DNA from: Liolophura sinensis | Taxonomy: Eukaryota > Mollusca > Polyplacophora > Chitonida > Chitonidae | Length of the DNA stretch: 64,000 nt | Assembly (NCBI RefSeq): GCF_032854445.1 | Contig: NC_088301.1 | Location: 3,844,001-3,908,000 of the forward strand | Direction of reading: 5' to 3' | Part shown: piece after piece, positions 3,842-42,400 of the stretch | Position numbering within the stretch: the first letter of the stretch is position 1 | Layout: every line of letters starts with the position of its first letter | Notes under the pieces: model-generated | Database searches by the model: none | Seen by the model: the letters and a program-made list of their open reading frames with translations, nothing else | What the model was told of the DNA's origin: nothing | Program-made: the position numbers and the translations under genes

Positions 3842-6800
3842 CTGAAAGCCAGAACACATGCTCACTTGTACATTGACTGTTTACAGATAGGTATAGGCAT
3901 TATCAGGAATATCTTTTTGCAGACTTTTGCAATGTTTTACTCATAGACAGTTTCACACAAAGTTCATTATTCAATGTTTTACTCATAGACAGTTTCACAC
4001 AATGTTCATTTTTCAATGTTTTACTCAGACAGTTTCACACCATGTTCATTATTCAATGTTTTACTCATAGACAGTTTCACACAATGTTCATTTTTCAATG
4101 TTTTACTCAGTTTCACACCATGTTCATTATTCAATGTTTTACTCATAGACAGTTTCACACAATGTTCATTATTCAATGTTTTACTCATAGACAGTTTCAC
4201 ATAATGTTCATTATTCAAAGTTTCACTCATGGACAGTTTCACACAATGTTCATAGAAATACATGCACAGAACTACATGTACCACAATGTGGCTTTCAGCT
4301 GCAATGCTGGATGCCACGGTTGTTACACAAGCTAACAGAACAGTTTAACCCCTGTGATGATTTATTTGTTTATTTGATTGGTGCTTTGCGCCGTACTCAA
4401 GAACGTTTCACTTAAAGGACAGCGGTTAGTATAATGGTGAAAGGAAACCGGGCACAGCTCGGGGGAAACCCACGACCATCCGCAGTTTGCTCACAGACCC
4501 TCCCCTGTGATGAACATACAGGCATATCACATACCACAGAAGTTTAACCTAAGCATCCTCTGAAACGTCACATACACACTGAACGCTTATGTGAAATGAT
4601 GCAGTTGATGCTTGCATTTTAGCATGGGGGCCACAAAGAGGATATTCTTTGAAATATTTATTTATTTATTTGATTGGTGTTTTATGCCGTACTCAAGAAT
4701 ATTTCACTTATAGGAGGGCAGCCAGCATTATGGTGGAAGGAAACCGGGCAGAGCCCGGGGGAAACCCACGACCATCTGCAGCTTGCAGCCAGACCTTCCC
4801 AAATACGGCCAGAGAGGAAGTCAGCATGAGCTGGACTTGAACTCACAGCGACTGCATTGGTTATAGGCTCCTGGGTCATTACGCTACGCTAGCGCGCTAC
4901 GGAGGCCCCCTTCTTTGAAATAATAGCATGTAAATGATTATATACGTAACATATAACATGTAGTAAAAGATAAAGACTGCTCAAAAAAAAACAAAACAAG
5001 CTACTTTGGTGTAAGATCTGTTTAAGGATACAAAAGATTAGGCCATTTTATGAAATTATTTCACCTTCTGATTCTCCATTTTCATATCCTGTGCAGAAAC
5101 AGCACTGTATGCATATCAATCTGATTACACCAATCACCAACAAATTGGATAAACCTGAAGGAAATTCTGCATATTTGCAAGGTGTTTATTCAAACACATT
5201 CTGCAGGCAATATTCTGTGTTCACTGGTACAATTATACTTTTGTGAAACCCTGAAAATGGCCAATCCAACTTTGTCTCATGCAGCACTTTAATCACCAGC
5301 GTTAATATTTACCTTAACACTGCCTTAAATGTTACTAGACAACATAAGCTCCTATTGTGCTTTGTACAGGCGAGCTAAAAAATATGTCCAGATATTTTGA
5401 AATGAATCTCTGTATATTTATAGGTCACAAATTCACCATCCTTAGCCTAAAGATGTATGGTCACTGACTGTAGCAGTAGGGTTACTCACAGCCACACACA
5501 GTCTGGTCAACACCATCTTCGGCCCTGTCGTGAACTGAAAAATCCTCTCAAAGAGACGGGTTCGCAGGCTGAGATACTGATCATGGGGAACCTCTTTCCT
5601 GTAAATAAAGTAAAGCATCTCAACATCGCATATCTACTGGAGGACAAACAGACAGCATCCTATATAAACACATACTACATGTGCTGGAGGTGACACAGGT
5701 GAGCTGAATTGGTCACGTGTTAAACATCATCATAACAACTCTTGGTGATTCTTGGTTTCCATTTGTTAATACAGTCATGTGATAGTCTGCAAACCATAAT
5801 GTACAGCCATAATTAGCCAGGGCAAGTCATACTCACAAGGTAATACCCCGTCCATCAGCATGCACTAATTATTTATTCTCAAATAACACAAAGGTATGTT
5901 CATATATTTATCCATTTGATGTATACTGACGTTCAACAATTCTCACAATTACCTGTGTATTCTGCTGGCCACATCTATGGGAGGAAGAAACCAGAGTGGA
6001 GGGAGTAGGCATAAATCTATAATTTTGATTCTTAAGAAAGCTGCATTGATATTGTTTGAGTTCAAAATGACAGTTAAGTTTTCTACTTGTCTTTCCTGAT
6101 GAAAACTCAATATGCCTTAAATCTGGTTAACATTAACAAAGTGGCTTGTTTTCATGTAGTGAGTACAAGAACAAATAATGCATACATTGTGCAGCCACAG
6201 TTTTACAAGCGTATCATTCTGTATCTCCACTGTAAATGTGCAATATGCCGGTGAAACAAAGTCTATAGACAATCACGAAATTGTGACAGTCCCCACTGCT
6301 TACAATTTTACTTACTACAGCTCAACTATTAAAATTTGCTTCCTATTTCTTAACAAGGTATCTACTTCAAGAAAATGCCATTCACTTTTCAGTCCTCTGT
6401 CAGCGAGAGTTTAGAACAGCAAACAGCATGTCTTAGGATTGGTTATATATATAATACTTCTATGTGATAAAAGATCAGACTACAATATTTTTAAAAGACT
6501 TACCAATATCTGGCTATTTTCACATGCAGTGTGCTTGCCCCAAAAAACTGCACTTCAATACTCTGTAAAACAATAAAAAGAACACATTAAAACTCAAAAC
6601 ATTACATTACCGTGCATTATATTATATCTTATTTGACATCAAAGGCCATGTAACTTCATTCATCACTGAAGGTGACCTTTAAGAACAAAAATGGCTTTTA
6701 TTTTTCTGCAGAGGGCGTAAATTAATTTTTTTAATTGTTCCAGGTTAACCTGCTGATACCTTACTGTCCCAGGTTAACCTGTTAATTACCTTATGGTCCC

Positions 6801-8364
6801 AGCTTAAGCTGCTATCACTTTGTTGTCCAAGGTTAACCTGCTATTGCCTTGTTGTCCAAGGTTAACCTGCTATTGCCTTGTTATCCCAAATTAACGTCCT
6901 ATTACCTTGTTGTCCCAGCTTAATCTGTCATCACCTTATCTTCCCATGTTAACCTGCTATTGCCTTGTTGTCCAAGGTTAACCTGCTATTGCCTTGTTGT
7001 CCAAGGTTAACCTGCTATTGCCTTGTTATCCCAAATTAATGTCCTATTACCTTGTTGTCCCAGCTTAATCTGTCATCACCTTATCTTCCCATGTTAACCT
7101 GCTATTGCCTTGTTGTCCAAGGTTAACCTGCTATTGCCTTGTTGTCCAAGGTTAACCTGCTATTGCCTTGTTATCCCAAATTAACGTCCTATTACCTTGT
7201 TTTCCCAGCTTAATCTGTCATCACCTTATCTTCCCATGTTAACCTGCTGATACCTTACTGTCCCAGGTTAACCTGTTATTGCCTTATGGTCCTAGCTTAA
7301 GCTGCTCTCACTTTGTTGTCCAAGATTAAGCTGCTATTTCCTTGTTGTCCAAGGTTAACCCGCTATTGCCTTGTTGTCCAAGGTTAACCTGCTATTGCCT
7401 TGTTGTCCCACTTAATCTGTCATCACCTTATCTTCCCATGTTAACCTGCTGATACCTTACTGTCCCAGGTTAACCTGTTATTGCCTTATGGTCCCAGCTT
7501 AAGCTGCTCTCACTTTATTGTCCAAGATTAAGCTGCTATTTCCTTGTTGTCCAAGGTTAGCCTGCTATTGCCTTTTTGTCCAAGGTTAACCTGCTATTGC
7601 CTTGTTATCCCAAATTAACGTCCTATTACCTTGTTGTCCCAGCTTAATCTGTCATCACCTTATCTTCCCATGTTAACCCGCTATTGCCTTGTTGTCCAAG
7701 GTTAACCTGCTATTGCCTTGTTGTCCAAGGTTAACCTGCTATTGCCTTGTTGTCCAAGGTTAACCTGCTATTGCCTTGTTATCCCAAATTAACGTCCTAT
7801 TACCTTGTTGTCCCAGCTTAATCTGTCATCACCTTATCTTCCCATGTTAACCTGCTATTACGTTACTGTCCCAGGTTAACCTGTTATTACCTTATGGTCC
7901 TAGCTTAAGCTGCTCTCACTTTGTTGTCCAAGGTTAACCTGCTATTGCCTTGTTATCCCAAATTAACGTCCTATTACCTTGTTGTCCCAGCTTAATCTGT
8001 CATCACCTTATCTTCCCATGTTAACCTGCTATTACCTTACTGTCCCAGGTTAACCTGTTATTACCTTATGGTCCTAGCTTAAGCTGCTCTCACTTTGTTG
8101 TCCAAGATTAAGCTGCTATTGCCTTGTTGTCCAAGGTTAACCTGCTATTGCCTTGTTGTCCAAGGTTAACCTGCTATTTCCTTGTTGTCCAAAGTTAACC
8201 CGCTCTTACCTTGTTGTCCCAGGTTAACCTATTATTACATGTACCTTGTTGTCCCCTAGAAGCTCCCAGGAAAAGGACCAGGCTTCTGGTGATACCTGTG
8301 CTGAAGTCAGCCATTTGTGTACCTCTCTCTGTAGGCTGGCATCATAGTAAAACTGACGAACTGC
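3743..8364 (-). CDS. ipo13: Importin-13 (karyopherin-beta family), 5' exons, partial
   Basis: Nuclear transport receptor of the importin-beta family that carries cargoes through the nuclear pore in a Ran-dependent way. Four exons join in phase on the minus strand: 8364-8245 (40 codons), 6562-6504, 5598-5490 and 3841-3743. All have AG acceptors and GT donors (gtacat, gtaagt, gtgagt, gtaagt). The joined product has blocks typical of the importin-13 N-terminus: QFYYDASLQ, WLTSAQVSPEAWSFSWELL, VQFFGASTLHVKIARYW, VPHDQY, KMVLTRLCVA, ALHTMPDVWP. These are the first HEAT repeats and importin-beta N-terminal domain. The first exon here begins in phase 0 after a clear acceptor, so a short upstream coding exon with the start codon is missing; I could not find it between 8.4 and 12.6 kb. 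The next 3' exon is not seen at 1-3742 and should lie left of the window. The intron after the first visible exon is filled by a ~29-bp array built from that exon's own donor. Confidence 0.9.
3925..4252. repeat. Minisatellite, ~42-bp unit
   Basis: About eight imperfect tandem copies of a unit like cacaatgttcattattcaat followed by gttttactcatagacagttt. Some copies lack 8-12 bp. It lies in the ipo13 intron about 85 bp upstream (gene orientation) of the acceptor at 3842. I see no similarity to the neighbouring exon. Confidence 0.9.
4360..4505 (-). mobile_element. Truncated tRNA-derived SINE (family A)
   Basis: It shares the family 3' tail (tttgattggtgctttgcgcc), the taatggtgaaaggaaaccgg block and the acccacgaccatccgcag block with the full copy at 4656-4910. 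It stops before the tRNA-like head. Confidence 0.8.
4656..4910 (-). mobile_element. Full-length tRNA-derived SINE (family A) with 12-bp target duplication
   Basis: Read on the minus strand it begins ggggcctccgtagcgcgcta, has an A-box and B-box head (gagttcaagtcc), and ends with the tail caccaatcaaataaataaat. It is flanked by the direct repeat ttctttgaaata at 4645-4656 and 4911-4922, showing target-primed insertion. The tail resembles SINEs described from molluscs (RUDI/V-SINE-like); that naming is from memory. Confidence 0.88.
5490..5598 (-). CDS. ipo13: ipo13 exon, 109 nt
   Basis: Acceptor tatttacag, donor gtgagt. It encodes KEVPHDQYLSLRTRLFERIF and then FTTGPKMVLTRLCVA, matching the importin-13 helix read as KIVLTRLCVAL in vertebrates. 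It opens with one base completing the split Trp and ends in phase 0. Confidence 0.9.
6504..6562 (-). CDS. ipo13: ipo13 exon, 59 nt
   Basis: Acceptor gttttacag, donor gtaagt. It encodes VQFFGASTLHVKIARYW, a hallmark stretch of importin-13 in which family members read like Q-Y/F-F-G-A-S-x-L-H. It ends two bases into the Trp codon, which the 5598-5490 exon completes. Confidence 0.9.
6739..8244. repeat. ~29-bp tandem array derived from the ipo13 exon donor
   Basis: About 50 units of 29-30 bp, basic plus-strand form aggttaacctgctattgcct plus tgttgtcca, with variant units (tcatcaccttatcttcccat; cccagcttaatctg) that recur in the same order and so form a higher-order repeat. Read in ipo13 orientation, many units contain GGGACAACAAG/GTAATAG. 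This is the last 11 bases of the adjacent exon plus a GT donor. The array abuts the exon without a gap. The core aggttaacct is palindromic. Confidence 0.92.
8245..8364 (-). CDS. ipo13: ipo13 exon (N-terminal HEAT), source of the adjacent array
   Basis: Acceptor cttcctgcag then 40 complete codons, including QFYYDASLQREVHKWL and SPEAWSFSWELL. The exon ends GGGACAACAAG and is followed by a weak donor, gtacat. The same 11 exonic bases recur dozens of times in the array that starts directly downstream in gene orientation (6739-8244). Confidence 0.9.
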
Positions 8365-9136
8365 CTGCAGGAAGAGCAGACAACAGAAAGAGTCTAAAAT
8401 CATCGTGCTACTTGACCACTAGACATTACATTGAATAACAGATGTGAAATTAGCGGAGAATCACTGACATCCCAACAGCTCATTACCTGTCATGACTTCC
8501 TTGTAAATTCTACTTTCAAATCTATTACTTATTTCCAGCCTTCTGACACATCCATCTAAACCTCATACAAACAAAAACTCTACAACATTCTAACAACTTA
8601 CCATTAAATACAGTTATAAGTCTTGCTGAGAGACACAATTAATGCTAACAACAATTAACTATGAATGCACTTTTAATACCTCATGCTGTTTTCTTAATTT
8701 TCTTTGTGGTGAATAATGCATTATAGAAGATTAAATGCTTGTATTTTGTATACCGTACACATTGTATACTTACGGACTCAATGTTTTCAGCAGAATATTC
8801 CATTTGTTATTTGATTAATTGTACAGTATGTATTTGTAGACAGTAACTTCTTTATCCACTATCCATACTGCAAATAAAAAAACCAGATGAGACAAATGTT
8901 ATGATAATTATGTACAGTATTCTTATCCAAAGGATTTAACATGAGTTGAACCCAATGCATTCCTGAACAAGTATACCTATATTCTCATTTAAATACACGT
9001 AGTAAATATACATGTAGGGTAGATATTAGCAAACTGCTTATACATGTAACTATAACAAAATCTGGCAATCTGGTTACTATGGCAACTGCAGTAATGGGCA
9101 CCTCCACACACATGTGCTAACGTATACATGTAAATA
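8365..9136. other. Non-coding stretch upstream of the first visible ipo13 exon
   Basis: AT-rich intronic or flanking sequence. No exon with family similarity, no RNA gene and no SINE was seen. Confidence 0.5.
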
Positions 9137-9715
9137 TAGAATCACTACAAGAAATGTACCCCCCATATGTGTACATGTAGAATCACTACAAGAAATGTAC
9201 CCCCCATATGTGTACATGTAGAATCACTACAAGAAATGTACCCTTCATACATGTACGTGTAGAATCATAACTTGAAATGTAACCCCCATATGTGTACATT
9301 TAGAATCACTTCAAGAAATGTACCCCTCATACGTGTACATGTAGAATCACTACAAGAAATGTACCCCCCATACATGTACATGTAGAATCACTACAAGAAA
9401 TGTACCCCTCATACGTGTACATGTAGAATCACTACAAGAAATGTACCCCTCATACGTGTACATGTAGAATCACTACAAGAAATGTACCCCTCATACATGT
9501 ACATGTAGAATCACTACAAGAAATGCACCCCTCATACATGTACATGTAGAATCACTACAAGAAATGTGCCCCCCATACATGTACATGTAGAATCACTACA
9601 AGAAATGTGCCCCCCATACATGTACATGTAGAATCACTACAAGAAATGTACCCCTCTTACGTGTACATGTAGAATCACTACAAGAAATGTACCCCTCATA
9701 CATGCACATGTAGTT
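9137..9715. repeat. Minisatellite, 41-bp unit, ~14 copies
   Basis: The unit is gtagaatcactacaagaaat plus gtacccctcatacgtgtacat. Copies differ mainly at ccccccata/cccctcata and at cgtgt/catgt. Each unit carries the palindrome acatgt or tacatgta. It lies upstream of the first visible ipo13 exon. Confidence 0.92.
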
Positions 9716-10151
9716 ACTTCCAATTTGAAGTTAAAACTAGAACTGCAAGCAATTTCGGGTGAGGTCCACGAAATGTAATTCTCATTATTCGTTGTCAAAT
9801 ACACATATGACGCAGCATTCCTATTTCTAACGATACAACCTCTTTGAGAAAGCATGGGCGATGCAGTAGAAACCAGGCAGTCCAAAAAAGCACATTACAT
9901 GTATGTGAATCTGTCCAGTTAACGTCTAGCTCCATGTTAAATGAACTTCAATTTCCATTACTAAAAATGGTTCATGTCTATTAAAGTGCTACTTTAGTCC
10001 TGACAGAAGCTACGCAGAAATATTAAAATGATATGAAGGATACCCTAGGGAAAAGAGCTAACACCAGGGTTCAAAAAGATCTACAACATATTTAACTCGT
10101 ATAAGTGAAGAGACTTTAAAAACAAAATCTTTGGCAGTTTCCGTAAAATTT

Positions 10152-10740
10152 TTCCTGATGTCACGTGATAATGTTCCTTATGTGACAATGAGTCAAATAA
10201 ATGTAAAGTCGAGTAAGGCAGTTATGCTGGCATGACGTCATGCGTGTTTGAAAGTGCGACGTCATTCGTTGCTATACATCAGAGATGGGCGACGCCAAGT
10301 GTTCTTGCATGACGTCACACCGGGCAAAATTGGAAATGACAGAAAACTTTTGTGCTACAGTGCTATGTTTTAACAATTTAGGAAAGCAATTCAGACTATC
10401 CCAATCCTTATCATTTAACCTTCCTTTCAAGACAATCTGGTCTTCACACTGTAGTAGCTCTTAAAACACTTCTAGTGAGAAAACTACTGATCTGGCAAAT
10501 GCATTTCTTGGGCTACAATATGGTGCAAGTTCAGATTTCTAGCTCTCATAGTTTTCAAATTATAAGCCATTCAATTTATGTAACAAAAGTTAGTTTCTTG
10601 ACATTATCTCAAAAAGTTGGACATATGGACAAAAAGCAAAAGGAGATTTGGAATCACTGGACTGAAATACTCTAGAATATATAAAAATATTATCAAAATT
10701 TTAAACTAGATGTGACGTCATAATTTCAACCAATGGTGAG
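10152..10740. promoter_or_regulatory. Cluster of CRE palindromes and an E-box; candidate promoter or enhancer
   Basis: Three exact TGACGTCA palindromes lie at 10233-10240, 10310-10317 and 10713-10720, plus half-site gacgtcat near 10258, a cacgtg E-box at about 10160 and ccaat at about 10730. The density is far above chance for an AT-rich genome. Position fits the 5' region of ipo13 (minus) or a shared ipo13/fam151 control region. No transcript start is visible. Confidence 0.45.
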
Positions 10741-12440
10741 CTTTCACAGTTTACACTGAAACTGAATGATTTTAGCAAACTTATCATAACTCGAGTTGGT
10801 CTACATGCATACTAAATATTAGAATTATCCATTTGCTCATTCTCTAGAAGAAAATGTTTTGGGAACATACATATTTCACCAAAAATACATTAATCTCCAT
10901 TACACTTAAAAAAACAGTAGTTAAAAATACATGACCTAAGATTAGTTGGCCATCGTGGCTTCTGGCACACATGTACTCTCGTCCCTATTTCTAAGCAAAG
11001 AAGATAAGATATGGAAAGGCAGATCTTTATCCAATAGGGCCTACGTGAGATACGCATTCTCGAGTATACTGGAAATTGGGATTAGAACCCTGGCAGTACA
11101 GAGGCTTCCTGTACATAAATGTTGGGCGAATGGAGTGTGTTCTCAATTAAAAAAAAATCTACACTCTACCTTTGCTTATGACACATTTGTTTTCTTTTCT
11201 TTTCTGGCGATATCCATCAATGTCAGTAGCTTATTTAAATTAGATCACGCCATAAGCATTTGTTCATCTAGATGGGACCTGCTAGAGTTTTGGTGGTACT
11301 AAGTGCCTCACTGTCAACAACCATTTTGCAGTGTCACGTGACCTACTTCTGGGTTTGAAATGTAACTGAGTTTCGGCATTGAAATCCTCGAGAAAACTAT
11401 TACATTTCGATTGCTGTCTGGCAAGAACAACTTCAACTTTCTTAATTCAATCCAAAAAAGCATAAAACAAAAATACTTGTGTTTTTTGTGCAGGTAAGTT
11501 TGGGTCCCGTCAGCACGGACTTCACTGAAATTGGCACCATCAAGTTGGAGTTCACAGATCTGCAGATGTGCAGCAATTTGTTTGAGAGGCGGCGACTGAT
11601 TCAGTGTTACAATGAATGTCAGAATTATAAAACAGCACCATAAGTTCATCTAGATGGACTAACTAAGCATTAATCATCACAAGTGTCACTATTTAAGGTT
11701 ATCACGTCTAGGAATAAAAACAGGCTACACAGTAACACACACTGGCATAGGGGCAAACATGTAATCTTACACCAGCTTCCAGTATATATGCGAGTGCCCC
11801 ACGTGGAACTACCGAGAACGTGTACCTCACATTTACTGGCACTTTTAAAAATGTACAGTAGTACATGAAGCTGCTGTCACGGCAAGGAAAGTCAGATGAA
11901 TGAGCAAGGCTCATTTTAATGTAAAAATGTCCCAAAATCCAAGGGGTAAAGGCCAGGCATTCGCGCAAACTGATTCTAGACTTGTCAATAGAGCTTTGTA
12001 CGGTATGTTTATGATCAAACACAATTACAAATTGTATGCGCGTTGGCCTATACAAAATATTCAATCTCCATTTAAATGGAGAACACATTTGTTTGTGTTT
12101 TTCGGGGTTCTCTACAGGGTGGACATATGTTGGTATGTAACAACAACATGGTCAGCAGTTTCATCTTTCACACTTTCTGATAGTGAGGAAAACAACACAT
12201 GTGTTGTCATAAAATTACCGGCTGGTACGTCCAAAATTTGACACATCTTTAACCAACAAAATCAATGATTTTCAGACACTGTCAGTTGTGTTTGTAAAAA
12301 CTATAGATGAAGATGGCAGAGAATGACAGTGTGGTTATTTTGCATTCCGTTTCTAGGACGCTTACCATTTCATACAGAGCTAGCTGTCACATAAATCGCT
12401 TGTTTGAAAATCTCATGCACTTTTTTGCATGTGGGCAGCC
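10741..12440. other. No gene supported
   Basis: Several ORFs of 110-126 codons occur on both strands but lack family similarity and credible starts. A polypyrimidine-CAG/GTAAGT motif lies at 11480-11500. A 16-bp perfect palindrome, ctccatttaaatggag, lies at 12066-12081. A strong-Kozak ATG at about 12313 (aagatggcagagaatgac) opens a frame of about 60 codons without recognisable content. Confidence 0.4.
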
Positions 12441-12605
12441 ATCTTGTTTAACTTGCCATGAATCCCGCGCAACACGAGATCTTAAGGACTTGTTTTAATA
12501 ATATTCTGATGTTTCTGGCACTCGCACGTAAATGCCGGGACTATTTCGCTTTTGGAAAGAGTTGTTTGACGCCACTAATAGCATCTTGTGTACTATCTAG
12601 ATGAA

Positions 12606-12837
12606 ATGTTACGAAGAAAGAAAAATTTTAAAACACTGTTTTGTCATGTGATGGAAACGAGACTTAAGCTCGTACACGATAGCATGTCAACAACGACAGG
12701 CCTCAACGACATGGCGGGGGGCACGCATCCAGCGACGAAACTGTATAACGTCGTACCCAGGCCAATGAGGCGGCTTATGGTCATCCAGTTTGCTATCGGC
12801 GGAATACTTATATTGATTTGGGTCCATTATAATGGAG
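12606..12837 (+). CDS. fam151: fam151 exon 1 (signal anchor), start uncertain
   Basis: The frame is open through ATGs at 12606, 12651 and 12684. All read into the hydrophobic anchor and end at NG/G before donor gtaaaa. The -3 bases are g, g and a, so context slightly favours 12684. The phase-1 end joins exactly to the exon at 16673. Confidence in the exon is high, in the start low. Confidence 0.7.
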
Positions 12838-21010: not shown

Positions 21011-21017
21011 TTGTGTA

Positions 21018-21023
21018 TATGTA

Positions 21024-21086
<63 letters not shown>

Positions 21087-21103
21087 TTGTTGTTAAATGG
21101 AAT

Positions 21104-21153
<50 letters not shown>

Positions 21154-21155
21154 TT
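21018..21155. repeat. (GT)n/(TA)n microsatellites
   Basis: A gtgtgtgtgt run passes into two long pure (TA)n blocks separated by about 30 bp. The TA blocks share the 3' flank acttg(t/c)tgt(t/g)aaatggaat, so the block itself was duplicated. Confidence 0.95.
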
Positions 21156-24090: not shown

Positions 24091-24096
24091 TTTATT
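24091..24096 (-). terminator. Candidate scp2 polyadenylation signal
   Basis: The complement reads AATAAA, 215 nt past the scp2 stop codon. This would give a short 3' UTR. Further AATAAA copies lie in the array at 23381-23792. Confidence 0.35.
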
Positions 24097-24310
24097 AAAC
24101 AGTGGTAAAAATTTACAATACCTCTTGTAGCAATTGACTAAATACAAGATTTTTCATAGAATCACACTCATTTGACACCTGAGATTTCAACAGCCACTAA
24201 TCACCCATATCTTCATTTGCTCATTTGCTCTTATGAATTTGTTTATATCATACAAAAAAATCACACAGCACTCTGGACGATTATGCTGTCAGCATACATT
24301 GGAACAGGCA

Positions 24311-24412
24311 TCAGAGCTTGGACTTCACAGATTTTGTCTTTGACTGTAACTCTCGGAGTTTCATGGCAAGTCCCATATTGCCAGCTATCTTCAGTTTCCC
24401 CTGGAAAAATGC
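24311..24412 (-). CDS. scp2: scp2 last exon with peroxisomal targeting signal
   Basis: Acceptor ctttcag. It encodes [19 protein letters not shown] and ends [16 protein letters not shown] is the conserved C-terminal helix of the sterol-carrier fold, and SKL is the canonical PTS1. Confidence 0.95.
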   Translation of the reverse strand, partial: AFFQGKLKIAGNMGLAMKLRELQSKTKSVKSKL

Positions 24413-27400
24413 CTGAAAGCAGAAGAGAATAAAAATTAATAGATGTCCATAACATCTATTGATGTCATATCATTCTTATTTTAATTTGTTTTTCTTTATT
24501 TGATTGGTGTTTTATTCCATACTCATTTCACATATATGAAAGCGGTCAGCATTATGTTTTGAGGAAAGCGGGCAGAGCCAAGGGGACTGGAGAGGAAGCC
24601 AGCAGGAGTTGGACTAGAACTCACAGAGATTGAATATCAATACCTAACAAGCATCAAGACAACCTGAAAAACTACCACAAACAGTAAATGACCTAAATTT
24701 TATCCCCAAAAGTGCATTTTTAGAGGCAGATAGATGTCAGAATATATTACTTTTGGTGTTGACACTTTTTCTAGTATGATTCCATCCTACCTTTCAAACA
24801 AAGGTCAAAACATCTTTGCATAACCAATAGAGCTATCTGAATGGGGCAAAATGAGAACAAAATACCCTAAGAAGGGTTATAGTAATACACAATTGTAAAG
24901 TATTAAACTTACAGGTGATGTTTCGCCACGATATGGTTGCAATACTGTGGTTTAAAAACATATTCATTCATTCAAAAGGTGAAGCCTCAACCTTGAGGTG
25001 GTAGACAGTAATCACCAGAATTACGTTCCACAAGTCGATCTGACCGCCACTGGTGGGCAGATCCAACCTCAACCTTGAGGTGGTAGACAGTAATCACCAG
25101 AATTACGTTCCACAAGTCGATCTGACTGCCACTGGTGGGCAGATCCAACCTCAACCTTGAGGTGGTAGACAGTAATCACCAGAATTACGTTCCACATGTC
25201 GATCTGACCGCCACTGGTGGGCAGATCCAACCTCAACCTTGAGGTGGTAGACAGTAATCACCAGAATTACGTTCCACAAGTCGATCTGACTGCCACTGGT
25301 GGGCAGATCCAACCTCAACCTTGAGGTGGTAGACAGTAATCACCAGAATTACGTTCCACATGTCGATCTGACCGCCACTGGTGGGCAGATCCAACCTCAA
25401 CCTTGAGGTGGTAGACAGTAATCACCAGAATTACGTTCCACAAGTCGATCTGACTGCCACTGGTGGGCAGATCCAACCTCAACCTTGAGGTGGTAGACAG
25501 TAATCACCAGAATTACGTTCCACATGTCGATCTGACTGCCACTGGTGGGCAGATCCAACCTCAACCTTGAGGTGGTAGACAGTAATCACCAGAATTACGT
25601 TCCACAAGTCGATCTGACTGCCACTGGTGGGCAGATCCAACCTCAACCTTGAGGTGGTAGACAGTAATCACCAGAATTACGTTCCACATGTCGATGTGAC
25701 TGCCACTGGTGGGCAGATCCAACCTCAACCTTGAGGTGGTAGACAGTAATCACCAGAATTACGTTCCACAAGTCGATCTGACCGCCACTGGTGGGCAGAT
25801 CCAACCTCAACCTTGAGGTGGTAGACAGTAATCACCAGAATTACGTTCCACAAGTCGATCTGACTGCCACTGGTGGGCAGATCCAACCTCAACCTTGAGG
25901 TGGTAGACAGTAATCACCAGAATTACGTTCCACAAGTCGATCTGACCGCCACTGGTGGGCAGATCCAACCTCAACCTTGAGGTGGTAGACAGTAATCACC
26001 AGAATTACGTTCCACATGTCGATCTGACCGCCACTGGTGGGCAGATCCAACCTCAACCTTGAGGTGGTAGACAGTAATCACCAGAATTACGTTCCACATG
26101 TCGATCTGACCGCCACTGGTGGGCAGATCCAACCTCAACCTTGAGGTGGTAGACAGTAATCACCAGAATTACGTTCCACAAGTCGATCTGACCGCCACTG
26201 GTGGGCAGATCCAACCTCAACCTTGAGGTGGTAGACAGTAATCACCAGAATTACGTTCCACAAGTCGATCTGACCGCCACTGGTGGGCAGATCCAACCTC
26301 AACCTTGAGGTGGTAGACAGTAATCACCAGAATTACGTTCCACATGTCGATCTGACTGCCACTGGTGGGCAGATCCAACCTCAACCTTGAGGTGGTAGAC
26401 AGTAATCACCAGAATTACGTTCCACATGTCGATCTGACTGCCACTGGTGGGCAGATCCAACCTCAACCTTGAGGTGGTAGACAGTAATCACCAGAATTAC
26501 GTTCCACATGTCGATCTGACCGCCACTGGTGGGCAGATCCAACCGCCAATACAGAACACAGAGTTCTGTAAGCTGCGGGAGTTAAGAGGCTTCAACATAC
26601 ACTACAAACTCCACTGCCGTCAGACTCGGAGGGTGGAGGGTTTGAGGGGCATCAGTGGTGCCACTGGTCTTCTCCAGTGCCCACTGTAATGACACTACCT
26701 CCTCCTGTGGCAAATGGAATGCACCCCTAAGCAGCTAGGTGGAGAAGCCTGCTAGAACCACATACCTGCTGTGGGTTCATCTTGCCTGTCATCAGCTTCA
26801 CCAAATCTTCATCAGCCATTGTTATCGTGCAATCGGCTTTGTCTGCAAACATCACCATTATATTTAATATAATTAATATACCCCATTAGTCAATGCACAA
26901 AAACGGAAGAATTATAATTTACCTGATTGGCGTTTCATAGTGTGCTCTTGAATTTTTCACTTATATGGCCTGTTAATATCCTCAACGCACACTGAAGTAT
27001 TGTCCCTCTGTGAGATTAACCTAGTTATCACTCCATTGTTATATCGCTCAATAAGAAGGAACAAAATGCACCTGTAGCTCCGAACTTGACAGCTCCACTT
27101 CCATTCTTGACATCGACGAACCACACAGCTTCCTGATTGCCCTTTTTACACTTGAATGCGAATGTTCCCTTAACCGTTTTCACCAGAGCGGGACCATCCT
27201 GAAATAGAAGATCTATGAAATGTGCATTAAATGAAGACATTGCCTCTTGATAAAGAATGAAAATGCGAAGGTAGTGGACATAGTTTCTGTTAATGTTTGT
27301 TTTTGGATTTCTGTTTCACACAATACTTACACTGTATACCCCAAATACCAAACAAGCTTTCAGACAGAATCCTAATCTACATGTATACATGTACAGTTAG

Positions 27401-30400: not shown

Positions 30401-33400
30401 CAGAGATTGGAATATTGGACCTACCGGGTGAACACAACCCCAGGGCATCATAGGTCAACAGTTCATTGGCTGAGAAACAGTCATGAAGCTCTACCACATC
30501 CACGCTGTCTGGATTCACACCTGTTACAGAATCATGGTATATATACATGTATCTGGCATGAAAATGTCACACAGTGTCATTATTTGTCTATACAACAGTT
30601 CTCCATCATGTAGCTCTACCACATCCACGCTGTCTGGATTCACACCTGTTACAGAATCATGGTATATATACATGTATCTGGCATGAAAATGTCACACAGT
30701 GTCATTATTTGTCTATACAACAGTTCTCCATCATGTAGCTCTACCACATCCACGCTGTCTGGATTCACACCTGTTACAGAATCATGGTATATATACATGT
30801 ATCTGGCATGAAAATGTCACACAGTGTCATTATTTGTCTATACAACATTTCTCCATCATGTAGCTCTACCACATCCACGCTGTCTGGATTCACACCTGTT
30901 ACAGAATCATGGTATATATACATGTATCTGGCATGAAAATGTCACACAGTGTCATTATTTGTCTATACAACATTTCTCCATCATGTAGCTCTACCACATC
31001 CACGCTGTCTGGATTCACACCTGTTACAGAATCATGGTATATATACATGTATCTGGCATGAAAATGTCACACAGTGTCATTATTTGTCTATACAACATTT
31101 CTCCATCATGTAGCTCTACCACATCCACGCTGTCTGGATTCACACCTGTTACAGAATCATGGTATATATACATGTATCTGGCATGAAAATGTCACACAGT
31201 GTCATTATTTGTCTATACAACATTTCTCCATCATGTAGCTCTACCACATCCACGCTGTCTGGATTCACACCTGTTACAGAATCATGGTATATATACATGT
31301 ATCTGGCATGAAAATGTCACACAGTGTCATTATTTGTCTATACAACATTTCTCCATCATGTAGCTCTACCACATCCACGCTGTCTGGATTCACACCTGTT
31401 ACAGAATCATGGTATATATACATATACCTGGCATAAAAATGTGACACTGTCATTGTTTGTCTATACAACAGTTCTCCACACAAACTGGAGGGTTGCAACC
31501 AGTGCTTATATACAGAGGCAAGTGGTGGTTATTTCTTAGGCAATGTTATTCAAACCAGAAATCCTACCATACTGTATCTGAAATTCAAGTTTCCTTAAGC
31601 TGCATTCACAGCATGATTAATTCTATTGTATCTTCAAATTCAACTCAAAATGTCCAGACTGTCATTTGTTTTTAGCCAAAAGGTACATGTATATGTACCT
31701 CATTCATACAAATTGTGACAAATATAGTTTGCCCTACGTTCATTCCACTGGTTATTTCTGATGATTCAACACAACAGACTTGAAGTTACAAATTGCACAG
31801 TGACCTTCAAAACTCTCTTTAGTGACACACATTGTCTACTTCACTTACTTGAAGTGGATTGATTATTGTAAAGCCTTCCATATCAATGGAATAGCCTCTA
31901 AGATTCCATTTTGAATTGACATATTACAGCTGAGGTAGACAAAACTTAAAATAAAAGGTACTTTAAACATGAATTTTGCTTTTTGTTACAGAGGGAAGTT
32001 AAAGAATTTAGCTTCATGTAACTCACCCGCACTATGGAAGGCCTTCTCGGCTGCTCTCTTTGTCATGTCAAAGCCAACCTTTAAATAAACACAAGATTTT
32101 AGTAATTCAGTGGCCTCGGAGAACTGGGCCCATATTTATCCATATATGTCTTAAAGACTTAATTCAAAAATTCAACCAGCTACAAATAAAATGCTTTGCT
32201 CTAGAAAGTTTAACATTTGTGCACTGATTCTTTACTGCAGAACAATGTACTAACCACAATTTGAGTAGTTTCCTGTTCTACCTTAGGCTTTATGCGATCT
32301 TGTAGTGTATGATATAAGTCTTAAGTTACTTCATAAATACGGGCCCTGGTCTATAAACAGGAGCCAAAAACAATTTTTCATTTCTCTTATCAGAACAAAG
32401 ATATTTGGTGTTCCAATTCATTCATTATTAATGGGATGGCAAATTAGCCAAGACTTATATACAGTAAAACAAGGAAGAGGAACCGCAAGAAGATGTCAGT
32501 TTTGACAAGATGTCGGTTTATGGAACAGGCAACAATGCATGTAGCGGCATTAAAACATATATGCATGTACAGATGCTTGGGGGCATCTCTACTTATCACC
32601 TGGAGAACTTGTTTCATACTCGCCAAGGTAAAACTGCTTCTGTCTTAGGATATCACTGCCTATATAATCGGCATTGAGAAGATGTCGATTTTTAGATGTG
32701 TCGGTGTTGGCAAGTCTCACTGCACATACATGTATGTGTCCAGTCGGGTTTAGCTCCGCCAGAAGACACCTTGCCAGGCACCCAACAACTTGTCTAACAT
32801 AAACCTGCTTCAGGGTTAGCGAATACTTTATTCAAACACATGTAACTGTAAATTGGGAAAGTCTAGTAGTTTTCTCTGTCGCCAAACGAACACAAAGAAA
32901 CAAGAAAATCGTGGTAACACCTCACAGTATCATGTCAGAGGAAACTTACGCTTGTAATTGTCTAAATAAAAGGAAAGGTTGAAAAAGACAAACACTTGTG
33001 AAATCTGAAGATGATGCATTTCTAAAAACCTTTAACTGACTCGACACATGAATACAAGAAAGCCTGTTCAAAAGACAGCAATCATTACCAGTTTGAGCGG
33101 ACTATTTTGGAATGTGGTTGGCAGGTCAGTTGCCATCTCCATGGCCAGTATCTCCACAGCTTGATCCTCCAGGTTGTGCTTCTTTACAAACTCCTCGCTC
33201 ACTAACACAGCCGCCCCTGCGCCATCCGATGTCGGGCTGAAGCATTTATTTCTGTATTTAATTTGACTGGTGTTTTGCACCATACTCAAAAATATTTCAC
33301 ATATTTGATTGCAGCCAGCATTATGGGTGAAGCATTTAGCAATTAAGTTGAATTGTATGATTTGTAAGAAGATGTTTGTGCAAAGTTCTATCAAACAGAA

Positions 33401-36400
33401 TTGTAAGTTATACTGTATTGACTTTAAAACTGACATTTAAACAGGTGTACTAACATAACAAATACTTAGTTTCCAATATGGTTATGATCATACTGTTATC
33501 TCAAAAACTTTATTAAAATGTTATCAATAAGACAGTGAAGCGTCAAAGTCAAATCTTTAAGAGGGCTATATTTCAAGGTGTTTATAATGTGCTGTAGAAT
33601 TGGAATTATTCCCTCCTAAAGTGTTGAGAAATGGATTACATTTTGATGTTTTTCTCTTCTTTAAAAATTACTGTCATATTGACATGTAGATATCACTACA
33701 AGGCTTGCTCAATGTTATCACAGCACTCACCAAACTTCTTAGCCTTGTAACTGGAGTGTACCTTAAAAGTCTCCCTCAAATACTACATTATCTGTACAGG
33801 TGATTGGGCTCAGTTGGTTTGCGCACTAGCGCAACGTAATGACCTAGAAGCCTCTCACCTATGCAGTTGCTGTGTGTTCAGCTCATGCTGGCTTCCTGTC
33901 CGGCTGTACATCAGATGGTCTGCAGCAACCTGCGGATGGTTGTGGGTTTCCCCCCACCATAATGCTGTCCGCCATTGTGTAAGTGAAATATTTTTAAGTA
34001 TGGGGTAAAACACCAATCAAATAAATAAATAAATAAATAGGTGATTAGATTTACACGTATTTATTTATTAGATTTGTGCCGTACACAAGAACATATGACT
34101 TAAACGGCAGCAACCAGCATTATGGTGACAGGAAACTGGGCACAGTCCAGGGAAATTCCACAACCATCAGCACACAGCTGGAAGACCTTCTTACATACCC
34201 ATACTTTAAGTGCTGTTTATAGGAGCCGAGGCAAACGTGCTCATAAATGTAGCATACCAAATTTAAGTTTTCACTAATCAAAGAATAATCCAAGATGGGC
34301 AGTTCGGAGGTCATAGCTCAAACAATCCATAACCCTGTTGAACCGTTTTTCCAAAGAGAAAAAGAATACTTTTGATTTATTCATTTATTTGATTGGTATT
34401 TTATGTTGTGCATAAGAATATTTTTCACACTTTTAATAAAACTTACCAGCACTGAAGTTTGGTCAGGGGGTCAAAGATTACAGGGGAACTTTTGATTTGT
34501 TCCAATGTGTACTCATCACGGAACTGAGAGTAGCTGAAAACGAACAAGAAAATTTCATTTACATGTATCTGCCAGAGCACAAAGGCAAGGATAAGGGAAT
34601 GTCACATAGCTTACAAAACCTTACAGAGAAAGGCCACAGTGGTCAGCAGGGGCTGGGTTTGAATACAGTCTCAATGGCCCACTGTTAGGTTATTATGAAC
34701 GATTACTTTCCAAGAGTTAATGACATCCACGATATTTATAAAACACTGAAAATGAAACGCCACCAAAATATATTATTTGGTAGCCTGCAGGCATCAATGT
34801 TAAGGTCAGATAGAGAGTCTCCTATCCTATAAAGGTGGTTTACAGTGTTACCAGGTATCAATGTTAAGGCCACATAGAGAGTCTCCTATCCTATAAAGGT
34901 GGTTTATAGTGTTACCAGGTATCAATGTTAAGGCCACATAGAGAGTCTCCTACCCTATAAAGGTGGTTTATAGTGTTACCAGGTATCAATGTTAAGGCCA
35001 CATAGAGGGTCTCCTACCCTATAAAGGTGGTTTATAGTGTTTCCAGGCATCAATGTTAAGGCCACATAGAGTCTCCTACCCTATAAAGGTGGTTTATAGT
35101 TTTACCAGGCATCAATGTTAAGGCCACATAGAGAGTCTCCAATCCTATAATGGAGGTTTATAGTGTTTCCAGGTATTAATGTTAAGGCCACATTGAGAGT
35201 CTCCTATCCTATAAAGGTGGTTTATAGTTTTTCCAGGCATCAATGTTAAGGCCACATAGAGAGTCTCCTACCCTATAATGGTGGTTTATAGTGTTTCCAG
35301 GCATCAATGTTAAGGCCACATAGAGAGTCTCCTACCCTATAAAGGTGGTTTATATAGTGTTACCAGGTATCAATGTTAAGGCCACATAGAGAGTCTCCAA
35401 TCCTATAATGGAGGTTTATAGTGTTTCCAGGCATCAATGTTAAGGCCACATAGAGAGTCTCCAATCCTATAATGGAGGTTTATAGTGTTTCCAGGCATCA
35501 ATGTTAAGGCCACATAGAGAGTCTCCTACCCTATAAAGGTGGTTTATAGTGTTTCCAGGCATCAATGTTAAGGCCACATAGAGAGTCTCCAATCCTATAA
35601 TGGAGGTTTATAGTGTTTCCGGGTATTAATGTTAAGGCCACATTGAGAGTCTCCTATCCTATAAAGGTGGTTTATAGTTTTTCCAGGCATCAATGTTAAG
35701 GCCACATAGAGAGTCTCCTACCCTATAAAGGTGGCTTATAGTGTTTCCAGGCATCAATGTTAAGGCCACATAGAGAGTCTCCTACCCTATAAAGGTGGTT
35801 TATATAGTGTTACCAGGTATCAATGTTAAGGCCACATAGAGAGTCTCCAATCCTATAATGGAGGTTTATAGTGTTTCCAGGCATCAATGTTAAGGCCACA
35901 TAGAGAGTCTCCTATCCTATAAAGCTGGTTTACAGAGTTACCAGGCATCAATGTTAAGGCCACATAGAGAGTCTCCTACCCTATAAAGGTGGTTTATAGT
36001 GTTTCCAGGCATCAATGTTAAGGCCACATAGAGAGTCTCCTATCCTATAAAGGTGGTTTATAGTTTTACCAGGTATCAATGTTAAGGCCACATAGAGAGT
36101 CTCCAATCCTATAATGGAGGTTTATAGTGTTTCCAGGTATTAATGTTAAGGCCACATTGAGAGTCTCCTATCCTATAAAGGTGGTTTATAATTTTTCCAG
36201 GCATCAATGTTAAGGCCACATAGAGAGTCTCCTACCCTATAAAGGTGGTTTATAGTGTTTCCAGGCATCAATGTTAAGGCCACATAGAGAGTCTCCTACC
36301 CTATAAAGGTGGTTTATATAGTGTTACCAGGTATCAATGTTAAGGCCACATAGAGAGTCTCCAATCCTATAATGGAGGTTTATAGTGTTTCCAGGCATCA

Positions 36401-39400
36401 ATGTTAAGGCCACATAGAGAGTCTCCTATCCTATAAAGCTGGTTTACAGAGTTACCAGGCATCAATGTTAAGGCCACATAGAGAGTCTCCTATCCTATAA
36501 AGGTGGTTTATAGTGTTTCCAGGCATTAATGTTAAGGCCACATAGAGAGTCTCCTATCCTATAAAGGTGGTTTACAGAGTTACCAGGCATCAATGTTAAG
36601 GCCACATAGAGAGTCTCCTATCCTATAAAGGTGGTTTATAGTGTTTCCAGGCATCAATGTTAAGGCCACATAGAGAGTCTCCTATCCTATAAAGGTGGTT
36701 TATAGTGTTTCCAGGCATCAATGTTAAGGCCACATAGAGTCTCTCCAATCCTATAAAGGTGGTTTACAGAGTTACCAGGCATCAATGTTAAGGCCACATA
36801 GAGAGTCTCCTATCCTATAAAGGTGGTTTATAGTGTTTCCAGGCATCAATGTTAAGGCCAGACAGAGAGTCTCCTATCCTATAAAGGTGGTTTATAGTGT
36901 TTCCAGGCATCAATGTTAAGGCCACATAGAGAGTCTCTTATCGTATAAAGGTGGTTTATAGTATTACCAGGTATCAATGTTAAGGCCACATAGAGTCTCC
37001 TATCCTATAATGCTGGTTTATAGTGTCACCAGGCATCAATGTTAAGGCCACATAGAGTCTCCTATCCTATAATACTGGTTTATAGTGTCACCAGGCATCA
37101 ATGTTAAGGCCACATAGAGAGTCTCCTATCCTATAATGCTGGTTTATAGTGTCACCAGGCATCAATGTTAAGGCCACATAGAGAGTCTCCTACCCTATAA
37201 AGGTGGTTTATAGTGTTACCAAGCATCAATGTTAAGGCCAGATAGAGAGTCTCCTACCCTATAAAAGTGGTTTATAAGGTTACGAAGCATCAACATAGTA
37301 AAAAATTGCCTTTGCCCGTTTAGGTCTGTATAGACCAATCTTCAGAAATAACTTTGGTTAAATTTCTGGGGTTGTCTTTTCTTTTAACCCTCTAGGACTC
37401 AACAGAAATGTGATGAATCAAGCTTCAACTGGCCTATTTGTTTTAAATAATTATTTTTTCTCTACATAAATGCCACAATTTTCTTTCTTCCCTTACATAC
37501 AGGCATTGATTAAGGAGTACTGTTGGTACTTACGGGTTGTTCACAGAGTGTTTGTGATTTTTCCAAGCAATTTTGGCAAGAACATCAGGACTGACACCTG
37601 GTAATAGAAACAAATATGTGCTTGATCACAAAAGTCAATATCTCTTATGATGAGAACAATTTGCAAATGATCCAAGAAAATGTCATAAAATACTTAAAAT
37701 ACATTTAATGACAATAACATACAGCTCATGATCGCTAAAAAACATCAGATGAGTAACAAGACTGTAAATTCAACTTCTTTATGACAGCAAGACCATTTCA
37801 CTTCCAGGGGGAGTCAACTAATGTAAAGGAACGCCCCAATGGTTTTACCACCAACATGTGTACCTTAAAATAATCACATAGTTCAATTTCTTTACATCTG
37901 GTATTTCGGGGGCCTCTGTGGCTCAGTTGTTTTGCGTGCTAGCCCAGCGTGATGACCCAGGAGCCTTTCACCAATGCGGTCGCTGTGAGTTCAAGTCCAG
38001 CTCATGCTGGCTTCCTCTCCGGCCGTATGTCGGAAGGTCTGCCAGCAACCTGCAGATGGTCATGGGTTTCCCCCGGGCTCTGCCTGGTTTCCTCCCACCA
38101 CAATGCTGGCCGCCAGTCATATAAGTGAAATATTCTTGAGTACAGCGTAAAACATCAATCAAATAAATAAATAAATAAATAAATAAATCTGGTATCTCCA
38201 ATATTTCAAGATACATTCTGTTTTATTCAATGATACATTTACTTCAACAATGCACACTGGATTTTAAAACTCTGCATGAAAGGTGTTTTTTGCCGAAAAG
38301 CACAGAGTGAAGTGCAACACATCTGTTCACATACAATCCATGATAACAAAAACAACGCCTTCATCTTCCGGAGATTACATGTGAATATTACTGAATACCA
38401 CATCCAATCATCCTATATGCCTCCTATCGGGTGACTTCGGTACAAGAAACAACTGGGTGAACTACAACTGTATTTACTCCTTCTAGAATGAGAAAACTGT
38501 ACATTTGCACTTACGAACTAATGTCATAACCTCGTGAACCCGAACAAGGGTAGCATGATTTGTAGATCAAAAATTCCTCATGCATCGTCAGTTTTCACCA
38601 ATTTATCAGGTACCGTTTCCTGCTCTCTGAGATTGTCTGCGACATATATATGTTATATTTATATATGACATATATATATATATATTTATATATATATTTT
38701 ATATATCTTAAGTCAGGCAACAATGTACGACATCATGTATAATGTCACGTTAAATACACAAGTCTGTGAAAGCCTACAGCTAAAAACATTTCCTTCAAAT
38801 ACACAAAATCATGATATTGTTAAAATATAAATAATAAACAGAATATCATAAATATTTTTGAGTGAAAGGTGGAAATGTTAACCCACTCAATGCGAGGGTT
38901 ATCATTTTCACCTTTCAATGTGCAATATCTTCTATTTAACAGCTTCTAAAGCACAGTTAATAAAGGCATGTACTGAACAGACACAGAGTACACCTCTACA
39001 ACATAGTGTTTTCAACTATACACAAGAATCCAGCATGTGCTCAATCATTCTGTCCCACTGACTTGCTTTACTTCTGTCATTCTGTCCCCTTTGACATTCT
39101 AAAACCAATGACTTATCCTTATCTGTTATGCTGCACCCTCTGACTTACCATACTTTTGTCATTCTTTAACCAATGACTTGCCACACCTGTCATGCTGTAC
39201 CCTTTGACTTACCATACTTTTGTCATTCTTTAACCAATGACTTGCCACACCTGTCAGGCTGTACCCTTTAACTTACCATACTTTTGTCATTCTTTAACCA
39301 ATGACTTGCCACACCTGTCATGCTGTACCCTTTGACTTACCATACTTTTGTCATTCTTTAAACAATGACTTGCCACACCTGTCATGCTGTACCCTTTGCC

Positions 39401-42400
39401 TTGTCATACAGTCAAACCTGTACTTACTGCCACCTGTACACATCATCCATCTGCCGTAAACGGCCACTCTCTGCCATGGCCAAACAATTTTCCATGTTAA
39501 ACGACCTGTAACATCTGGGCACCTGTCCAACGCGTCCAGCGGCCAATATATTTTGCAACCAAATTCTATATCAGTCTGTCCTGATCGGCCAAGACTTTCA
39601 ACAGTGAAGATGATGGCGACCACAGGCTTCAGAAGTTTTTGTAGTGATTAAAAGTTACAACCTGCCACTTTGTGATGACAAGTGAAGTGTGATCATTATT
39701 GGTGAATGGCAATGAAGTCTATTGTTCTTTAATGAGGCCCAGCTGGCTATAGTTCGGACACTGTGGAAATCCACTGCTGGATTAGCTCCATGCTGAGGTC
39801 CGAGCTATGAATGCCATAAACAGTGGGCAAACTAGGATATAATCTGACCTCCTGTGGTTTCTGCCATGAATGGTTTCTTTGACAAATTATCTGGCTTTTT
39901 TGACCATTATCTTTGCAGGGAAATGGAGTTGTGTTTTCATTTCGCATTGCCAAAATATTGCGTGCACTGAACACATGAAGAAATTGATCTTCCTTCACTC
40001 GTTCACTTTGTTGTTGTTTCACCACTAATGGCAAATATGATTGACTGGATTTTCGAGCATCTCAGCAGTCTGCCACTTACACTTAACAATTATTTATAAG
40101 TTTACTATGTACATGTGTAGATTTCCTGAAACTTAATTCAGTTGTGATTTGGCTTGGTCTTCACAACCTGTCTTTATGTGGCCAACTGTCATATGCAGCC
40201 ACTTTTTACGTCTCCCTTCACTGGCCGCATAGAACAGGTATTTTCTATAGTAACACTGTATTTTTGTCATTCTGTTCTGAATAACTTTCCACACCTGTCA
40301 TGCTGTATTTTCGTCTTTCCGTCCTTAATGACTCGCCATACCTGTCAGGCTGTAACCTTTGACTTACCATACTTTTGTCATTCTCTAACCAATGACTTTC
40401 CACACCTGTCATGCTGTACCCTTTGGCTTGTCATATTTTTGTCATTCTGTCCTTAATGACTTGCCACACCTGTCAGGCTGTACCCTTTAACTTACCATAC
40501 TTTTGTCATTCTCTAACCAATGACTTGCCATATCTGTCATGCTGTACCCTTTGACTTACCATACTTTTGTCATTCTGAAACCAATGACTTGCCATATCTG
40601 TCATTCTGTACGCTTTAACTTGTCATATTTTTATCATTCTGTAACCAAAGAATTGCCACACCTGTCATGCTTTACCCTTTGACTTACCATCCTTTTGTCA
40701 TTCTGAAACCAATGATTTGCTATATTGGTCATGCTGTACCCTTTGGCTTACCATACTTCAGTCATTCTGTTCCCATTGACTTGCATACTTTTGCTACTCT
40801 GTCCCCATTGACTTGCCATACTTTTGCTACTCTGTTCCCAATGACTTACCATACTTTGGCTACTCTGTCCCCATTGACTTGCCATACTTTTGCTACTCTG
40901 TTCCCAATGACTTGCCATAATTTTGCTACTCTGTTCCCAATGACTTGTCATAATTTTGCTACTCTGTTCCCATTGACTTGCATACTTTTGCTACTCTGTC
41001 CCCATTGACTTGCCATACTTTTGCTACTCTGTTCCCAATGACTTACCATACTTTGGCTACTCTGTCCCCATTCACTTGCCATACTTTTATCATTCTGATC
41101 CCAATGACTTACCATACTTTGTCATTCTGTTTCCAATGACTTGCCATACTTCTGCTACTCTGTTCCCAACGACTTGCCATACTTTTGCTACTCTGTTCCC
41201 TATGACTTACCATACTTTTGCCACTCTGTCCCCACTGACTTGCCATACTTTTGTCATTCTGTTTCCTATGACTTGCCATACTTTTGCTACTCTGTTCCCA
41301 CTGACTTGCCATACTTCTGCTTCTCTGTTCCCAATGACTTGCCATACTTTTGCTACTCTGTTCCCAATGACTTACCATACTTTGGCTACTCTGTCCCCAT
41401 TGACTTACCATACTTCTATCATTCTCTTACCAATGACTTACCATAGTTTTGTCATTCTGTCCTAAACAACTCACCATACTTCTCCATGTACTCCTTGCCA
41501 GCATTCCCAAACAACTGTGCAGTGATTGGCGATGCGTCCATTCCACAGCAGTTGCACATGACCTCCACATGTTTGTCCATGGGACTGGTACGGTCAGAGT
41601 ACTGCAACAACAACAACAACATGGGGGTCAACGGCACACTGTTTTCAAGAATGTCTGTCAACTTGTCAACTTAAATAAATCACATAGATTGAACTATACC
41701 TCTTTTACGCAACAGTATTAATTTCCAGACAGAGCACATACCAATCAACATTCTCCAGATTGAATACAGCCATCTATCATTACCTTTATTTTTATAGAGC
41801 CCTTTTTGATCTTCTCAAAGCCCAGCTTATGTCCTCAAAACTAGAATAACCCTCAGTTCTTGGTTACATTTTCATAGAGCATATTTTCAATTTTCTCAAA
41901 GTTCAGCTCTATTATCTCAATACTGAATTCAGCCACCGGCCATTACCCTCATTCACAAAGAGCCCTTTTTCATCCTCTAAAAACTCAAAACTGAAACCGT
42001 TTAATGTCATTACCTTCATTTTTAGAGAGCCTCTTTCCATCTTCTCAAAGCCCAATGCCAGTACACAGTCAGATATACCTGATGATCAGAAAAATCCAGA
42101 CATATGCGATAAAAAAAACCCTGAACAAACAGAAAATGTTTATCAACAGAAAGGAGACATTAAAAGAGCATTGAAGTAAGCTTTCATCAAACGTTCATCC
42201 TCGTGATTCTTTTTTTATAAACTTTCCACAGAGTAAAACTTCTAAAAGCATTAGTAAATTGTACAATCGCCCTCACCAGTTGTTTCGGACAGTACTAAAT
42301 GCGATACATGGTATGGTGTTACAGTTTCTGAACTATCCTACTGGTGCAGCATGTCACAATAGCACTTTGCATTAGATCAAACAAGAGTTTGCAATGTCAC

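Follow-up and report, generated by a model that had tools for sequence, protein, structure and literature searches.

Why should tandem repeats inside introns be built from the very exon edges that border them? The question is raised by a 64,000-nucleotide window of the mollusc Liolophura sinensis (contig C7, positions 3844001 to 3908000, of a 609,464,459-base assembly in 632 contigs), where an initial annotation had described four arrays in two neighboring genes, IPO13 and SCP2, each carrying a splice junction. Models of the two genes were built by tblastn, reading of GT/AG signals, and spliced alignment with human IPO13 and SCP2, and both genes were placed on the minus strand by tblastn and spliced alignment. 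Because the spliced aligner was restricted to GT-AG introns, canonical exon edges are built into these models. All four arrays were confirmed to carry the adjacent junction, namely, the donors at 8245, 41475, and 42014 and the acceptor at 30520, which makes the splice junction their common factor. In each of them the boundary lay within the tandem units, the exonic part came from the adjacent coding exon, and the array itself was located in the intron. We propose, with a probability of about 0.75, that these arrays are "mirage" minisatellites, that is, neutral local duplications of exon-intron junctions that are tolerated by introns and amplified as minisatellites.

The first array borders an IPO13 exon:

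8245..8364, minus strand: IPO13 exon ending ...LLGDNK, with its 3' end present in 29-bp units (tblastn, splice sites)
6735..8244, minus strand: putative donor mirage array, IPO13 intron 1 (TRF, unit listing, 14-base exact exon/unit match)

Tandem Repeats Finder (TRF) determined 51.9 copies of the 29-bp unit down to position 6735, and the units include the last 11 exon bases. At the donor (8245|8244), the exon end GGGACAACAAG|GTA, comprising 14 bases of which 11 are exonic, was exactly repeated in the first full unit; one example unit reads GTAATAGCAGGTTAACCTGGGACAACAAG. Whole-segment alignment at this donor was weak when taken alone (score 15.2, z 2.8), and the case is instead made by the exact in-register match adjoining the array. 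The donor position reads GT, GC, or GA among the units. Many copied donors between 6735 and 8244 have changed from GT to GC, and multi-unit groups repeat there in identical order, forming a higher-order pattern.

Two further donors belong to consecutive SCP2 exons:

41475..41601, minus strand: SCP2 exon 7, with its donor present in 33-bp units (tblastn, splice sites)
40256..41474, minus strand: putative donor mirage array, SCP2 intron 7, 33-bp units, in part with a 192-bp higher order (TRF, alignment)
39090..39409, minus strand: sister array, SCP2 intron 7, 31/64-bp units of the family of the 33-bp array (TRF)
42014..42078, minus strand: SCP2 exon 6, source of decayed copies (tblastn, splice sites)
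41739..42013, minus strand: three decayed copies of the exon 6 end plus donor, about 80 bp apart, SCP2 intron 6 (gapped alignment)

At the exon 7 donor (41475|41474), AGAAGTATG|GT with nine exonic bases reappeared at the same register of the 33-bp units between 41460 and 40360, the units carrying AGTATG|GTAAGT, and related arrays were found at 40256-40784 and 39090-39409. This junction aligned to its own intron with a score of 18.3 (z 3.9). At the exon 6 donor (42014|42013), the array was missed by TRF; three decayed copies holding 37-42 exonic bases were nevertheless detected in this 412-bp intron, with z values of 10.5, 7.9, and 14.1, each exceeding the best of 300 shuffles. A strict 24-base ungapped junction search at its first threshold had recovered copies at only two of the four window junctions, the other two being missed because of indels and short exonic parts, and gapped alignment was adopted instead. 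Aligning units to exon ends, a check that the annotation had proposed, supported the SCP2 donors, and the donor at 8245 was supported by its exact 14-base match.

The fourth array copies an acceptor:

30425..30520, minus strand: exon 12 of the SCP2 model, its 5' part being the source of the 125-bp array (tblastn, splice sites)
30481..31478, minus strand: putative acceptor mirage array, eight copies of 125 bp comprising intron end, AG, and 40 exonic bases (TRF, alignment)

At this acceptor (30520|30521), the 125-bp copies were 98% alike and 39 of the 40 copied exonic bases were identical. Introners and other intron-borne mobile elements carry splice signals and occur as dispersed copies of one element. 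When the genome was queried with the 125-bp unit, the only unit searched in this way, all eight of eight matches fell inside its own array, and similar copies at many loci were not found for this unit. Unlike introners, the arrays here consist of local units unrelated to one another, of which the one tested is confined to a single locus, and the initial annotation was right that one mobile element does not explain them.

The frequency of such arrays was then determined in a sample of eight genes from this one genome, comprising IPO13 (with its part left of the window added), SCP2, and six CCT subunits, with 107 introns and 214 junctions. CCT chaperonin loci were located by a Pfam search that took no account of arrays, and the six sampled of nine multi-exon loci were those fitting one 10-kb stretch; this choice was not blind, since arrays at some exons were already visible beforehand. 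AMP-binding loci, being mostly intronless copies, were left out. Three modelled exons are shorter than 30 bp, and two of these three, of 15 bp, are doubtful, so a few of the 107 introns are doubtful as well. Tandem arrays occupied 23% of 104 kb on C7. Among 31 intronic TRF arrays, 13 spanned a junction, nine at donors and four at acceptors, and both 5' and 3' boundaries were accordingly duplicated. When the 214 junctions were aligned to their own introns with gaps, a score of at least 16 was reached by 18 of them, 12 among the 107 donors and 6 among the 107 acceptors. The cases taken were the donors of IPO13 introns 1, 12, 14, and 19, SCP2 introns 6 and 7, CCT5 intron 7, CCT3 introns 9 and 11, and CCT6 intron 4, and the acceptors of IPO13 introns 7, 16, and 25 and SCP2 intron 11, with a short one at CCT3 intron 1. 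Junction arrays therefore occurred in five genes of the sample; none was taken in CCT7 or CCT8, nor in CCT4, which showed one weak case. In IPO13, intron 25 held 25 copies of its own acceptor and intron 12 held 33 copies of its own donor, 30 of them with GT; the copies in CCT5 intron 7 ran 93 bp into the exon.

Several borderline junctions required a decision. Despite scores of at least 16, the donors of CCT4 intron 5 (z 8.7, perhaps an old mirage), CCT4 intron 4, and CCT6 intron 2 (the latter two with z under 4) were not taken, and the acceptor of CCT3 intron 4 (z 6.1) was likewise left out. IPO13 intron 1 was kept for its exact match and CCT3 intron 1 on five exonic bases. SCP2 intron 6 and IPO13 intron 16 were clear yet fell outside the TRF count, as no TRF array lay at the junction, whereas IPO13 intron 14 and CCT3 intron 9 were counted because a junction copy lay inside the array, although the TRF edge stood 119 and 82 bp into the intron, respectively. 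Two more arrays were observed outside the count. A 92-bp array at about 200-1515 of locus L054, rich in GTGAGT on the minus strand, abuts the end of a minus-strand AMP-binding exon and is probably one more donor-side array. A 101-bp array in IPO13 intron 23 (C7:3817505-3820571) carries, 303 bp away from the real donor, a strong donor-like motif of score 11.0 and is perhaps an old mirage.

Do these arrays meet junctions more often than evenly placed ones would? For the null, each array was collapsed to one unit, founder units were spread evenly, and junction-spanning positions were counted as fully tolerated; the chance expectation lies above zero because the genome is array-rich and edge duplications may do no harm provided that the outer site is retained. 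Gene-wide, the 13 of 31 junction-spanning arrays compared with 3.9 expected (P about 3e-5), and outside the window 10 of 22 compared with 3.1 (P about 3e-4), indicating that the predicted coincidence of arrays with splice sites beyond chance held in the eight genes. Omitting IPO13 intron 14 and CCT3 intron 9 left 11 of 31 versus 3.6 expected (P 3e-4) and, outside the window, 8 of 22 (P 0.004 gene-wide, 0.027 with placement in the own intron). Placement within the own intron raised the expectation for all 13 to 5.3 (P 4e-4), and doubling the units raised it to 6.3 gene-wide (P 0.004) and 8.8 in the own intron (P 0.045); with doubled units in the own intron outside the window, 10 compared with 7.4 (P 0.12). 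In another array set, with overestimated unit lengths and two arrays merged round a CCT3 exon, 13 of 23 were spanning versus 5.6 expected.

The excess lay at donors, a donor/acceptor split that was chosen after the data were seen and in a small sample. Nine donors were spanned against 1.9 expected gene-wide (P 6e-5); outside the window there were seven, where 1.5 were expected (P 4e-4), and with doubled units the gene-wide comparison was nine against 3.1 (P 0.002). Donors exceeded expectation in all eight null settings (P 6e-5 to 0.023). In collapsed introns of at least 500 bp, four compared with 0.86 (P 0.009), and in those below 350 bp, three compared with 1.3 (P 0.11). Acceptors were spanned at the even rate in the eight genes (4 versus 1.95 expected, P 0.13), which does not bear out the idea that they too are favored sites. 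Donor-spanning arrays thus appear about fourfold over-represented, and one possible cause is biased mutation at 5' splice sites.

The position of the breakpoints was examined further. The exonic share of the unit was evenly spread from 0.12 to 0.91 (n = 14, Kolmogorov-Smirnov p = 0.91; exonic lengths included 42 for SCP2 intron 6, 9 for intron 7, and 40 for intron 11), indicating that breakpoints ignore the junction itself. The suggestion that some process favors splice sites is therefore upheld in part: donors are spanned beyond even placement, but the breakpoints are not tied to the splice site. Among donor copies, GT was retained in 112 of 166 and GC occurred in 37 of 166, while of the 43 acceptor copies 39 retained AG. 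The score of the authentic site was equaled or exceeded by 73 donor and 32 acceptor copies. Averaged over 12 arrays, identity was 0.84 at splice dinucleotides versus 0.87 at other columns, and since the dinucleotides are on average no better conserved, the decoys do not seem to be held by selection. The longer copied exonic pieces are coding sequence conserved with human proteins, so their movement was out of the exon and into the intron; the same direction is presumed for the shortest pieces (5-11 bases). In every case the frame-keeping site was the outermost one, copies having been sought in the adjacent intron only, as is expected if only duplications preserving the mRNA survive.

On the mirage reading, a stretch of about 20-150 bp straddling an exon-intron junction would undergo tandem duplication. 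The added piece of exon would fall on the intron side, and the mRNA would stay unchanged as long as the outermost site, that is, the first donor or the last acceptor, is used. The unit could then multiply and homogenize like any minisatellite, through slippage or unequal exchange, and its copies would decay without selection on the decoy sites. Correct splicing, neutrality, and the mechanism of amplification are inferred in this account. Several observations weigh against this proposal. Neutrality alone leaves the donor excess unexplained, which would need something more, either a fragile zone of DNA close to donors or shorter ancestral introns combined with the purging of duplications at acceptors. 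Repeat coverage was not peaked at junctions, being about 0.10-0.13 at donors, about 0.2 deep in introns, and about 0.04 at acceptors. A genome-wide motif count gave no clear excess, with 550 triple AGGTAAGT versus 389 for the reversed control (single copies, 17 versus 10 reversed in 250 kb; the counts are matches, not arrays), although this count has little power because none of the 107 sampled donors reads AGGTAAGT. Finally, the donor T was the most variable column in two of the 12 arrays, IPO13 intron 1 and SCP2 intron 7 (0.42 and 0.43), a pattern that might also reflect decoys being lost.

Among the alternatives, pure geometry survives best and is a reasonable, if less favored, possibility. 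It supposes that introns were shorter when the arrays were born and were later lengthened by decayed arrays, so that no bias is required. The three decayed copies within the 412-bp SCP2 intron 6 are consistent with it, as are the acceptor counts, the own-intron expectation of already 5.3 of 31 (8.8 with doubled units), and the outside-window total under the most permissive of these placements (P 0.12). The donor excess, however, persisted in all eight settings and in introns of at least 500 bp, and geometry predicts that donors and acceptors match unless duplications at acceptors are selectively purged.

A mutational process directed at 5' splice sites, in which R-loops, a stalled spliceosome or U1, or transcription-replication conflict starts the tandem duplications, appears unlikely. 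Apart from the donor excess itself, which extends to doubled units, to arrays outside the window, and to the longer collapsed introns, there is a strand difference: in 23 of 31 arrays (p 0.02) the unit had its best donor-like motif stronger on the coding strand than on the opposite one. Against such a process, the even exonic share indicates breakpoints not set by the junction, the ratio of donors to acceptors (9 to 4) was alone not significant (p 0.27) and was split post hoc, and the excess in collapsed introns below 350 bp was slight. Similarly, GC skew, an R-loop-like signal, did not clearly differ between junction arrays and other arrays (p 0.12), and eight genes only were sampled. The broader generalization, that in molluscs splice-linked mutation makes 5' splice sites birth hotspots of minisatellites, with donor-junction copies forming a large share of intronic repeats and introns growing from their own exon edge, is correspondingly speculative and probably too strong.

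It is very improbable that the introns arose recently through tandem duplication of stretches of exon, as in the proto-splice-site model. Excerpts of a study of lancelet globins propose mirages as raw material for new introns (PMC3087553), and intron gain by exon duplication is reported, again in excerpts, for Drosophila; the units here, however, hold the true junction plus intron sequence and not exon alone. Selection for decoy sites, for example, to buffer or regulate splicing, can hardly be credited, for although many sites equal in strength to the authentic one persist, the dinucleotides are no better conserved than other columns, GC has replaced GT in 37 of 166 donor copies, two of the 12 arrays are most variable at the second base, and the units differ between genes.

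The initial annotation had considered a process of this kind to be new, but the same structures have been published as the "mirage" minisatellites of lancelets, which excerpts of PMC3087553 and PMC3902484 place in Adh, the globins BflGb6 and BflGb9, troponin C, and PGBD5; the latter paper adds PGBD5 and cites troponin C, and the Adh case (Canestro 2002) is given here as cited in these papers. According to the same excerpts, lancelet mirages share with the mirage-like arrays here tandem units across a 5' or 3' boundary, variable unit length, and AG/GT signals kept in many but not all units, and the authors' RT-PCR suggests normal splicing (PMC3087553). The arrays here differ in their occurrence in a mollusc, in five of eight sampled genes, with up to about 50 units and a counted donor excess. 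Intron gain by tandem genomic duplication, which excerpts of PMC2891723 and PMC3443670 describe with the proto-splice site AGGT and novel Drosophila introns, likewise involves local tandem duplication of splice signals; there, however, a duplication inside an exon yields a new intron, whereas here the junction is copied into the bordering intron. Among the papers listed from the open-access literature searched, with most subscription papers outside its reach, two, both on lancelets, use "mirage" in this sense, and none of those listed treats such repeats in molluscs. The kind is thus already known from lancelets; new here, as far as this search shows, are its occurrence in another phylum, how frequent it is, and the count at donors. 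Mirages previously came from a handful of lancelet genes, and here they would account for 13 of 31 intronic arrays in eight mollusc genes. Three questions thereby become open to testing: whether tandem duplication is triggered by 5' splice sites, by what means the spliceosome selects the outermost among up to dozens of equivalent sites, and how much of intron growth is owed to an intron's copying of its own edges.

Within the window, the introns of IPO13 and SCP2 held nine TRF arrays, of which three spanned a junction. No junction was found in the window arrays at 3925, 24985, 34788, 44280, and 46103, and that at 39090 is the sister of the array at 40360. Three of them are as follows:

3925..4253, no strand assigned: 42-bp array, IPO13 intron 3, no junction found (TRF)
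24985..26544, no strand assigned: 82-bp array, 19 copies, 98%, SCP2 intron 18, no junction found (TRF)
34788..37276, no strand assigned: 64-bp array, 38.9 copies, SCP2 intron 8, no junction found (TRF)

At 46103-46232, a ATTGGTGTTTTACGCC-like element occurs in about three copies and presumably resembles part of a mollusc short interspersed nuclear element.

Elsewhere in the genome, COX1 was found seven times on contig C99 at a spacing of about 15.5 kb and once on C632, which probably reflects assembly of the mitochondrial genome into a concatemer of head-to-tail copies. COX1 of the mitochondrion is read with genetic code table 5, with three of five AGA/AGG codons lying, by eye, at serines of the best solved COX1 chain. 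Six AMP-binding matches lie on one strand at C10:2512613-2619849, four of them with the domain nearly complete within a single open frame (about 565 aa), and the cluster perhaps consists of retrocopies multiplied in tandem. At C8:37880506-37891931, eight hemocyanin beta-sandwich domains follow one another, every one of them within a long open frame of 429-529 aa, and all eight matches of this family in the genome belong to that row, which points to a molluscan genome; an eight-unit hemocyanin is ascribed to the ancestor of all molluscs in excerpts of PMC7931591.

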